Shown: one piece after another, positions 2,112-10,910 of the stretch
Position numbering within the stretch: position 1 is the stretch's first letter
Layout of the letters: the number at the start of each line of letters is the position of its first letter
Origin: Omnitrophica WOR_2 bacterium RIFCSPHIGHO2_02_FULL_52_10
Lineage (GTDB): Bacteria; Omnitrophota; Gorgyraeia; Zapsychrales; Zapsychraceae
DNA length: 15,558 nucleotides
Assembly (NCBI GenBank): GCA_001805655.1
Contig: MHGR01000019.1
Coordinates: forward strand, 1 to 15,558
Direction: 5' to 3'
Translations under genes and position numbers: made by a program
Notes under the pieces: generated by a model
Seen by the model: the letters and a program-made list of their open reading frames with translations, nothing else
Told to the model about the DNA's origin: nothing
Databases searched by the model: none

Positions 2112-2631
2112 ATTACAGACCACCGCATTTTTAATGGAACCAATGCATCTTTCACAGCATAGGAAAGCGGTTGCTGCTACCCCAACTTTCCTTAATAAAT
2201 GTTTAGAGGAAGTTGGGGTTGTCCCAGCTTCATCTAGGATTCTTTCAAGGAAAGCTGGGACTAGAAAACTCCTTTCCTATGCAGGCCGACTTTCCTTAAA
2301 AGTTTTAGAGGAAGTCGGCACAGTAATGGCTTCCTCTGGATGCTTTTAAGGGAAGCCATACAGCAAAGAAGATACGACGTCCTCATTTTCCTTTAAAATA
2401 TTTAGAGGAAATGAGGACATGTACTTGCCTTTTCTGTAGTACTTTTGAAGGCAAGTACGAACGTACTGGTTTTCCTTAATTTAAGTTTAGGGGAAACCAG
2501 TTACGTAACTAGCTTCCTCTAAAAATTTATAAAGGAAAGCTAGTACGCAGTGAGGAGTTTTCTTGCAACTGGTTGGAGCGGTGGCAGTATTGACGTCCGC
2601 AAGGGTTCCATTACTTATACGGACGTCAATA
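2112..2631 (+). repeat. Dispersed palindromic element, copy 1, interrupted by a hairpin array
   Basis: This is one of three related ~110 bp elements in the window. The left part is 2112-2156 and the right part 2566-2631. The conserved plan is TTACAGACC, an outer stem CCACCGC (2120-2126) with GCGGTGG (2578-2584), a small stem GCATT/AATGC around TAATGGAACC, and then a second hairpin TATTGACGTCCG (2588-2599) with CGGACGTCAATA (2620-2631). Copies 2 and 3 have TTTCACAACT uninterrupted; here 409 bases (2157-2565) sit inside it, possibly with a duplicated CA. The element starts four bases after the stop of the EAL gene and overlaps the stop of the convergent gene. The second hairpin is in the opposite orientation to the other copies. 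Confidence 0.85.
2157..2565. repeat. Array of eight alternating-orientation hairpins with variable stems and a shared loop core
   Basis: Eight imperfect palindromes follow each other: 2180-2218, 2222-2260, 2285-2319, 2326-2359, 2379-2418, 2421-2458, 2461-2506 and 2508-2544. Odd members read stem-CTTTCCTTnAAA...TTTAGAGGAAG-stem'; even members carry the same core on the other strand. Stem sequences differ completely between most members (for example GCCGACTT, GTCCTCATTT, GTACTTGCCTT) yet each is perfectly self-complementary for 8-11 bp. Two longer-range stems also occur: 2157-2167 with 2272-2282 (GCATAGGAAAG, enclosing hairpins 1-2) and 2263-2273 with 2553-2563 (AGAAAACTCCT, enclosing hairpins 3-8). 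Gaps between hairpins are 3, 24, 6, 19, 2, 2 and 1 bases. Retained pairing under sequence change suggests that the folded form matters, as RNA or as single-stranded DNA. No protein is plausibly encoded. The function is unknown. Confidence 0.85.
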
Positions 2632-3116: not shown

Positions 3117-3224
3117 TTACAGACCACCGCATTAGTAATGGAGCCAGTGCACTTTCACAACTCGTTGGAGCGGTGGCAGTATTGACGTCCGCATAGGTAA
3201 TGGAACCTTTGCGGACGTCAATAG
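3117..3224 (+). repeat. Dispersed palindromic element, copy 2 (uninterrupted)
   Basis: This is a complete copy in the same orientation as copy 1. The outer stem is CCACCGC 3124-3130 with GCGGTGG 3170-3176. The small stem is GCATT/AGTGC, where a U-A pair of the other copies becomes U-G. The second hairpin is a perfect 14-bp stem, TATTGACGTCCGCA (3180-3193) with 3210-3223, whose loop carries a further AGGT/ACCT stem around the shared TAATGGAACC. It lies between divergent genes (minus gene starting at 3021, plus gene starting at 3255), so it is not simply a terminator. A one-base deletion relative to copies 1 and 3 breaks the short frame (MEPMHLSQ) seen in them, which argues against coding. Confidence 0.88.
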
Positions 3225-3254: not shown

Positions 3255-3902
3255 ATGATTGTATTGGAAGTTTTATTCTTGATCGGTGGAATAATTTTTA
3301 CCGGCGCGCTGGGCGGGAAGATTTACCGGCAATGGAATGCCCTGCAGGTCAAGGGCCGCATCAGCGCCGGGATTCTTTTGTGTTTGTGCTGCGTCTTTTC
3401 CGGCTGTGACATCTTGTACAGGGCTTTGGACAAAGAAGGGGCGGAGGAAAAACAGCTGGTGGGGGAGATTATCCCTTATGAAGCCAACCCAGTCATAGAA
3501 GAGGCTCAAGCCCTGCTCTATTTATACGGGTACAATACCGGCAAGGTCGACGGCATGCTCGGCCTCAGGACGCGCAACGCTTTAGAGAAATTTCAAACGG
3601 ATAACGGGTTGAAGCCTTCGAGGTCTTTAGACAAGGCGACTTGGGAGCGGTTGAATGTTTTTAAGGAAAATCAACTCGTTGTTGACCAGCAGCTTAATAT
3701 TCCGTTGGTACAAAAGCTTTTAAAGGCGGCCGGGTTTGACCCCGGAGACATTGACGGGAAAATGGGCGCTAAGACAGAAGCCGCGGTATTGAATTTTCAA
3801 GAGGCCCAGGGGTTGACGGCTGACGGTAAAATCGGGTACCAAACATTAAGCAAGCTTGCCGGCTATTTAACGGAAGATATGTCGGCAAACGATCACAAAT
3901 AA
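3255..3902 (+). CDS. Membrane-anchored protein with two peptidoglycan-binding domains
   Basis: This 215-residue envelope protein probably binds peptidoglycan. The N-terminus has two hydrophobic segments (about 2-20 and 38-50). The second ends in VFSGC (C51), which resembles a lipobox, so a lipoprotein is possible if translation or processing starts later than the first ATG. Two PG_binding_1 repeats follow: about 79-132 (IEEAQALLYLYGYNTGKVDG...TRNALEKFQ) and about 148-204 (VQKLLKAAGFDPGDIDGKMG...TEAAVLNFQ), each with the typical D-G-x-x-G and F-Q positions. There is no catalytic domain, so its role is attachment or sensing rather than cleavage. The start at 3255 is uncertain: the only purine-rich string (GGGG 3251-3254) is too close to the ATG, and TTG at 3264 is an alternative. 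It is followed by the sucC promoter region. Confidence 0.85.
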   Translation: MIVLEVLFLIGGIIFTGALGGKIYRQWNALQVKGRISAGILLCLCCVFSGCDILYRALDKEGAEEKQLVGEIIPYEANPVIEEAQALLYLYGYNTGKVDGMLGLRTRNALEKFQTDNGLKPSRSLDKATWERLNVFKENQLVVDQQLNIPLVQKLLKAAGFDPGDIDGKMGAKTEAAVLNFQEAQGLTADGKIGYQTLSKLAGYLTEDMSANDHK

Positions 3903-10797: not shown

Positions 10798-10910
10798 ATA
10801 TTGACGTCCGCAAAGGTTCCATTACCTATCCGGACGTGTCAATACTGCCACCGCTCCAACCAGTTGTGAAAGATGCATTGGTTCCATTAAAAATGCGGTG
10901 GTCTGTAATT
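10798..10910 (-). repeat. Dispersed palindromic element, copy 3, between nqrC and nqrD
   Basis: This is the same element as at 2112 and 3117 but on the opposite strand. The second-hairpin arms are TATTGACGTCCG 10799-10810 and 10831-10844, the latter with a two-base TG insertion. The outer stem is CCACCGC 10848-10854 with GCGGTGG 10895-10901, and the element ends in the complement of AATTACAGACC. The uninterrupted TTTCACAACTGG on its sense strand shows what copy 1 looked like before the array. It fills nearly all of the only large gap in an otherwise packed operon and may affect mRNA stability or the expression ratio. Confidence 0.88.

Follow-up and report, generated by a model that had tools for sequence, protein, structure and literature searches.

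A hairpin array in an Omnitrophota genome as a probable nest of miniature mobile elements

The hairpin array and its layers

The window, that is, the whole stretch of 15,558 nucleotides analysed here, lies on contig C19 of a 1.56-Mb MAG of Candidatus Omnitrophota (137 contigs, 76% complete). The array adjoins a response-regulator/EAL gene, whose best three of five confirmed matches belonged to Candidatus Omnitrophota with 66–67% identity. A partial transposase-like frame, seen by eye, runs off the window start on the minus strand (1–695). Eight hairpins in alternating orientation (+, −, and so on) are present at about 2179–2544, and they have a common tip and differing, self-paired stems as the initial annotation had described. 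A covariance model of the hairpin found seven of the eight in the order 2179+, 2221−, 2285+, 2323−, 2379+, 2465+, and 2508−. Hairpin 6 (about 2423–2459), which is visible by eye and has a divergent tip, was missed by the model at E<=0.01. The array folded far better than shuffled sequence, as had been anticipated, both as DNA (+ strand, z −12.9) and as RNA (+ strand, z −14.0; − strand, z −13.8), and none of 100 shuffles was as good in any of the three cases. A scan of the whole window against Rfam gave no family at the gathering threshold.

Comparison with other copies resolved the region into a composite at 2114–2631, slightly beyond the limits first given to it, in which an element R2 is inserted in an element R1 and carries four hairpin pairs. 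Its features are as follows.

2114..2156, + strand: left half of R1 (TACAGACCACCGC...TTTCACA), by comparison with other R1 copies
2155..2565, + strand: R2 (CAGCATAGGAAAG...GGAGTTTTCTTG), 411 bases with its four hairpin pairs included
2157..2167, + strand: 5' arm of R2 stem P1, pairs with 2272–2282
2180..2260, no strand assigned: slot 1 pair (hairpins 1 and 2), flanks CTA/CTA; model matches 2179–2219 (+) and 2221–2261 (−)
2263..2272, + strand: 5' arm of R2 stem P3, pairs with 2554–2563; interlocked with P1
2272..2282, + strand: 3' arm of R2 stem P1, pairs with 2157–2167
2285..2360, no strand assigned: slot 2 pair (hairpins 3 and 4), flanks CAG/CAG
2378..2455, no strand assigned: slot 3 pair (hairpins 5 and 6), flanks TACGA/TACGA
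2464..2544, no strand assigned: slot 4 pair (hairpins 7 and 8), flanks ACG/ACG
2554..2563, + strand: 3' arm of R2 stem P3, pairs with 2263–2272
2566..2631, + strand: right half of R1, with the terminal hairpin TATTGACGTCCG..CGGACGTCAATA at 2588–2631

R1, the outermost layer of the nest, is a miniature element of 106–109 bases, which begins with TACAG (TGCAG in L020) and finishes with CAATA. The IS630/Tc1-type MITEs, with a TA target duplication at both ends, may be a candidate family for R1. The fetched stretches contained 23 R1 copies with a complete right hairpin, three of them in the window, where empty copies lie at 3118–3223 (+) and 10799–10907 (−). The latter occupies a spacer that separates Na+-NQR-like genes (identified by eye). 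Compared with the copy at 2588–2631, the loop of the right hairpin was flipped in three of the 23 copies, namely the two empty ones in the window and L046. The right hairpin of an R1 copy at L030 (1035–1312) is interrupted by another palindromic repeat (TCATTCGACGGCGCC...), which also occurs at L048 (about 3430–3580).

R2 is an element of about 93 bases (92–96 bases in empty copies), and its core matched in seven of the 81 genomes of the order. The junction of R2 in R1, TTTCACA^ACTSGTTGG, was found in seven copies or fragments (window, L015, L018, L021, L025, L026, L027), of which L026 contains a run of N and L025 and L027 are incomplete. At L018 (1110–1392), a composite of R1, R2, and hairpin pairs lies between two sulfate-adenylyltransferase-like ORFs (named by eye). 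Fifteen viral contigs fitted a 17-base R2 pattern; blastn detected matches of 18–21 bases in six of them and none in nine, and these fits were dismissed as chance.

The initial annotation had reported two 11-bp stems enclosing separate groups of hairpins. These stems exist and are the two stems of R2; however, they are not separate enclosures, because their arms follow one another as the 5' arm of one stem, the 5' arm of the other, the 3' arm of the first, and the 3' arm of the second, and would form a pseudoknot. Pairing was counted across seven genomes in 21 of the 30 R2 loci, the remaining loci being filled or partial. In the interlocked structure 97.3% of cells paired, with 25 double-changed cells versus 7.9 in shuffles, whereas an alternative local 5' hairpin paired worse (84.5% overall, 71.4% for that helix). 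For stem P3, 99.5% of cells were paired and one of the ten pairs was changed on both sides. Over the whole R2 structure, the number of pairs changed on both sides was 3 versus 2.6 shuffled, a value reached by 286 of 500 shuffles, and that of pair types was 9 versus 10.6 shuffled, reached by all 500.

R2 has four fixed sites for hairpin pairs, and a copy holds from zero to four of these pairs; the filled slots of the window are flanked by repeats of 3–5 bases (CTA, CAG, TACGA, and ACG). Slot 1 was empty in L011, L016, L018, and L021 and filled in L013, L014, and L015. Slot 2 was empty in L013, L015, L018, and L021 and filled in L011, while in L014 it carries three further hairpins inside. Slot 3 was empty in L016 (1104–1226) and L021 and filled in L011, L015, L018, and L019, and slot 4 was empty in L011, L015, and L018. 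A pair 91% identical to that of slot 4 stands alone in another repeat of the same-genus genome G002 (L051). Some of the empty slots could be explained by loss through slippage between the short direct repeats, and no insertion was seen as a difference between strains. By eye, the triple-hairpin variants of slot 2 (L014, about 1458–1575; L214 and L221 of G002) have alternative folds, because their arms pair crosswise as well. In L061 and L208 (G002), slot 3 is occupied by another palindrome, in the form CCTGCCTGC..GCAGGCAGG and as a variant of it, which suggests that the R2 loops may be open to further palindromes.

The hairpins alternate strictly inside the window, but the family as a whole does not follow this rule, since the tip of hairpin 5 was flipped within the same stem in three R2 copies (L015, L018, L019) and hairpin 1 was flipped in L023. 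The flips of the R1 loop and of hairpin 5 are a sign of DNA-level exchange between the arms.

Copies of the double-hairpin unit, its tip and its sites

When the own genome was searched with 2112–2631, 90 DNA matches in many partial combinations were obtained. The covariance model was seeded with 36 hairpins, drawn from 46 non-redundant ones of 93 candidates, with stems required. With 150 of 1194 candidates scored in the own genome, it gave at least 53 matches there at E<=0.001. Over the phylum, the threshold of E<=1e-4 was passed by at least 14 of 384 genomes, which include the own genome and all belong to the same order; 17 candidates were scored per genome and weak carriers were therefore missed. 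A plain DNA search matched 11 of 111 relatives, including G038, which is absent from the results of the model search; its 24-base match in G090, at class level, was taken as chance. The search for further copies that had been suggested initially thus revealed units dispersed in the own genome and in relatives of the same order.

At E<=0.01 the model gave 252 matches over 99 fetched sources, both strands of one hairpin often being counted. Removal of overlaps and of one duplicate locus left 196 hairpins in 97 loci, the input being the best 150 of the 252 matches plus weaker ones, with the better strand kept and L074 dropped as the same place as L152. Among 77 cases of neighbours within 8 bases, 70 were arranged '+-', four '--', two '++', and one '-+', which indicates that the usual unit is a facing pair. 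This basic unit is about 80 bases long, and its two hairpins are mostly 0–1 base apart. The 44 hairpins with no close neighbour include some at stretch ends or with a low-scoring partner, for example hairpin 6 of the window.

The hairpins share a conserved asymmetric tip, YTTTCCTT..AGAKGAAR (YTT-T-CC-TT ... AGAKGAAR). In 131 distinct sequences of 150 aligned matches, the covariation score was 0.468 versus 0.187 in shuffles, and 355 stem cells were double-changed versus 125; none of 500 shuffles was as high in either measure. Of 500 shuffles, 71 reached the observed 9 unit-stem pairs changed on both sides (7.4 in shuffles), and 27 reached the observed 27 further pair types (24.5 in shuffles). 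Two of the five covariation measures thus do not stand out from shuffles, and the shuffles overstate significance because related copies were entered separately. One stem position showed all four pair types with counts of 41, 32, 32, and 20, while the tip was almost invariant. The drift of the stems is mostly an exchange of G-C and A-T pairs along the pattern RYMCYNRY. An apparent pair in the tip, columns 14–54, was unpaired in 65 of the 131 sequences, which indicates conservation of the tip at the level of sequence and not of pairing. The proposal that selection acts on structure fits the covarying stems, and the tip is constrained in sequence too. The further idea that each private stem serves as a tag was not supported, because copies in the same slot have common stems and the stems drift between slots and lineages.

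Since the model had been seeded with stems required, sites were also chosen by the tip letters alone. The pattern TTTCCT-N(6-16)-TTAGAKGAA gave 81 matches in eight of the nine hairpin genomes searched (none in G012), whereas the reversed control pattern gave two. In 12 other relatives one match was obtained and the control also gave one; this lone match (same-genus G001, L273) had flanks complementary at five of seven positions. After sites less than 12 bases from a stretch end were omitted and identical contexts merged, near-identical same-slot copies being counted separately, 49 of 71 distinct contexts had 6–7 of 7 flanking positions complementary, versus a mean of 4.0 and a maximum of 10 in 1000 shuffles. 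These 49 well-paired contexts contained 22 different arms, and ten further contexts were complementary at five of seven positions.

Relatives of the same order also have hairpin pairs that stand by themselves in different sequence surroundings. The backgrounds of the units included R2, several R1-like elements, GGATCCTTCGC^..CTCAGGATGACG and CCCGC..GCGGGAATGACA repeats, and the neighbourhoods of tRNA genes. Pairs near tRNA genes or inside tRNA-like fragments were seen at L113, L124, L127, L131, L143, L149, L151, and L152. Insertion into tRNA genes was considered: ARAGORN predicted a tRNA across the unit-free junction at two places only (tRNA-Tyr at L124 and tRNA-Ala at L127), and no tRNA spanned the junction of the other units tested after unit removal. 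Both tRNAs were found intact with the unit present, and insertion into tRNA genes was rejected.

The 70 pairs were reduced to 60 sites with distinct flanks. At 49 of these sites the unit lies between direct repeats of the form Y(N)R (36 of two bases and 13 of three), a rule that was formed on the same 60 sites and then counted. With shuffled flanks 12.8 ± 3.0 sites fitted it, with a maximum of 23 in 1000 shuffles. Eleven sites break the rule, among them slot 2 of the window, whose CAG/CAG repeat can be seen by eye although the edge placed by the model is shifted. No constant tag at the hairpin foot was found in the flanks of the 70 pairs, in which the only bias was towards a left-hand Y and a right-hand R. 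Hairpin loops contained 74% of 50 sites versus 58% of control positions, with an edge effect, a difference that does not establish loops as preferred targets. Nine units lie in open frames, putative genes, that extend for 25 codons or more to either side (in two cases for more than 160), and the unit length was a multiple of three in 26 of 49, related copies being counted separately.

R2 copies within protein-coding frames

Of the 25 R2 copies found by pattern, six (L203, L205, L209, L211, L213, L223) lie in frame within open frames that continue for 62 codons or more to either side. Each of the six is exactly 93 bases long, and the L205 copy is at 1500–1592 of G000:C20. R2 adds to these hosts a peptide of about 31 residues, SxGKYK..NSFPxQQRRYDERSEEFSC. 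A Pfam scan of four of the six ORFs assigned NLPC_P60 (L205), NYN_YacP (L223), Wzy_C, i.e. O-antigen ligase (L211), and TPR (L203), and only the NLPC_P60 match (residues 318–429) spans R2.

R2 encodes residues 364–394 of the NlpC/P60 host protein. In 12 of 13 strongly matching relatives the match stops at residues 357–372 and resumes at 398–409, and in one relative, G035, it is unbroken through R2. Nine tblastn alignments contained 32–47 gap positions in total; the one inspected has its gap at about 380–408, an edge that the alignment does not fix exactly. A protein search with the R2 peptide gave two proteins among three candidates, one identical to the query and the other (P0002) resembling the O-antigen-ligase host of L211.

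Probable mobile elements and alternative explanations

We consider it probable (about 0.8), judging from sequence comparison, that the array consists of miniature mobile elements, non-autonomous and nested in one another, which are served by a putative trans-acting enzyme. Four double-hairpin units would have inserted at four sites into the loops of R2, and R2 in turn within R1. A putative recombinase or transposase would move the units by recognising the tip of the folded hairpin and joining them at short targets of the form Y(N)R. If the enzyme reads the tip and the shape, the stem would be held only to self-complementarity, and its drift could proceed through compensatory change or through template switching from arm to arm. 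The alternating orientation may have arisen from repeated insertion of palindromic pairs.

The handling of single-stranded DNA hairpins by a recombinase, as proposed in the initial annotation, is a mechanism compatible with our findings. One version of it, a REPIN-type system in which a Y1 (RAYT/TnpA-REP) transposase acts on single-stranded DNA, has the same topology, since an inverted hairpin doublet is the replicating unit in the part of PMC3116915 available to us. Y1 genes matched in 11 of the 14 hairpin-bearing genomes, and at L194 (G002:C20) a hairpin pair lies about 100 bases upstream of a Y1-transposase-like gene. However, no Y1 match was obtained in G014, G029, and G043, which are 86–92% complete, and of 32 sources scanned in the vicinity of Y1 genes, representing 30 distinct places, only four had hairpins. 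The Y1/RAYT-like gene on C115 (L048, 2120–2990) is flanked by a different palindrome of its own, CCACCTCGGAGGTGG, which by eye is unrelated to R1 and R2, and the hairpin foot has no constant tag. The check for Y1 genes confirmed their frequent presence and, in these incomplete genomes, gave no firm link to the hairpins; a REPIN-type system is unlikely, and RAYT as the mobiliser, though conceivable, is not supported. Our search for the mobilising enzyme covered Y1 genes as the only enzyme class and identified no mobiliser, and no autonomous partner was seen; the MAG being 76% complete, the enzyme could be missing from the assembly.

Spread through an RNA intermediate, by reverse transcription into nicked sites and with R2 perhaps a retroposon whose left flank is often T-rich (A-rich on the other strand), would agree with the T run that precedes many R2 copies (by eye, uncounted). 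Such a route was also suggested for the Allomyces elements, according to the portion of PMC2800124 available. That suggestion rested on absent flanking duplications, whereas repeats of 2–3 bases bound 49 of 60 unit sites here, and we regard the RNA route as somewhat less likely still than a Y1 system.

The other reading of the initial annotation, taken as a functional multibranched non-coding RNA with a role for every hairpin, would account for the strong folding on both strands and for covariation in the unit stems and, more weakly, in the R2 stems. However, pairs are individually present or absent between copies, hairpin 5 is flipped in three of them, and pairs stand alone in unrelated repeats. 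In addition, no Rfam family reached the gathering score in the window, and copies lie at many places, in gene spacers and in open frames. A single large RNA as the unit of selection was therefore rejected, and a functional multibranched RNA is improbable. Ordinary intergenic terminators or random palindromes, to which the intergenic position of many copies would be suited, can practically be dismissed, since the tip letters occur at 81 sites versus two for the reversed pattern, the '+-' arrangement of pairs is fixed, and 370 of 384 phylum genomes gave no model match.

Within the reading of the array as nested mobile elements, we tentatively propose, at somewhat less than even odds, a bacterial double-hairpin family whose enzyme would read only the hairpin shape and the asymmetric tip of about 15 bases and join at Y(N)R, so that recognition would be decoupled from the stem sequence. 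Other palindromic elements, one of which enters proteins in frame, would be landing pads. REPINs and BIMEs of Pseudomonas and enterobacteria likewise are inverted hairpin doublets that are dispersed, replicate, and form clusters, and compensatory changes were reported in their spacer hairpin (PMC3116915, available part). Unlike the Omnitrophota units, in which the tips are conserved and both stems vary, REPINs have strongly conserved outer REP sequences and a varying spacer according to the same text. REP elements further carry a constant tag such as GTAG or CGTC in the section of PMC3733652 at hand, whereas the Omnitrophota units have none, and in the incomplete genomes compared here these units showed no stable link to a Y1 gene such as characterizes the REPIN/RAYT system.

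The original Allomyces study reportedly concerned mitochondrial double-hairpin elements. These and the repetitive hairpin-forming elements of sponges resemble the units in that two adjacent hairpins are dispersed, also inside genes, and are thought to be mobile (PMC2800124, in part). The Omnitrophota units differ from the organellar double hairpins in being bacterial and in their conserved asymmetric tip, Y(N)R repeats, and insertion into a second element; the sponge elements have conserved stems and variable loops in that partial text, the reverse of the units. LIMP and HyLIMP of Lobosphaera mitochondria share a fixed loop in both orientations, and stem changes in HyLIMP are usually compensated on the other arm; however, LIMPs are described, in what was available of PMC4524435, as single hairpins with pentanucleotide-repeat stems in one algal organelle. 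By its description, R2 resembles the Rickettsia palindromic elements (RPE), short palindromes in frame in unrelated protein genes with a conserved peptide (PMC10969869, in part). RPEs are about 150 bp long, while R2, of about 93 bp and from another phylum, can carry double hairpins in its loops. No published description of these Omnitrophota elements was found among the titles and abstract openings by which the literature was judged, most subscription papers falling outside this scope.

If our reading is right, in-frame palindromic insertion is extended to Omnitrophota by R2, and the double-hairpin form, which the available parts of the literature compared here describe from organelles, is brought to bacteria. 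The units would then constitute a natural collection of hairpins from which the structural requirement of the enzyme could be read, what varies freely being unread and what is constant being read. They would also provide a test case for compensatory change in stems, in which selection on folding could be set against template switching.
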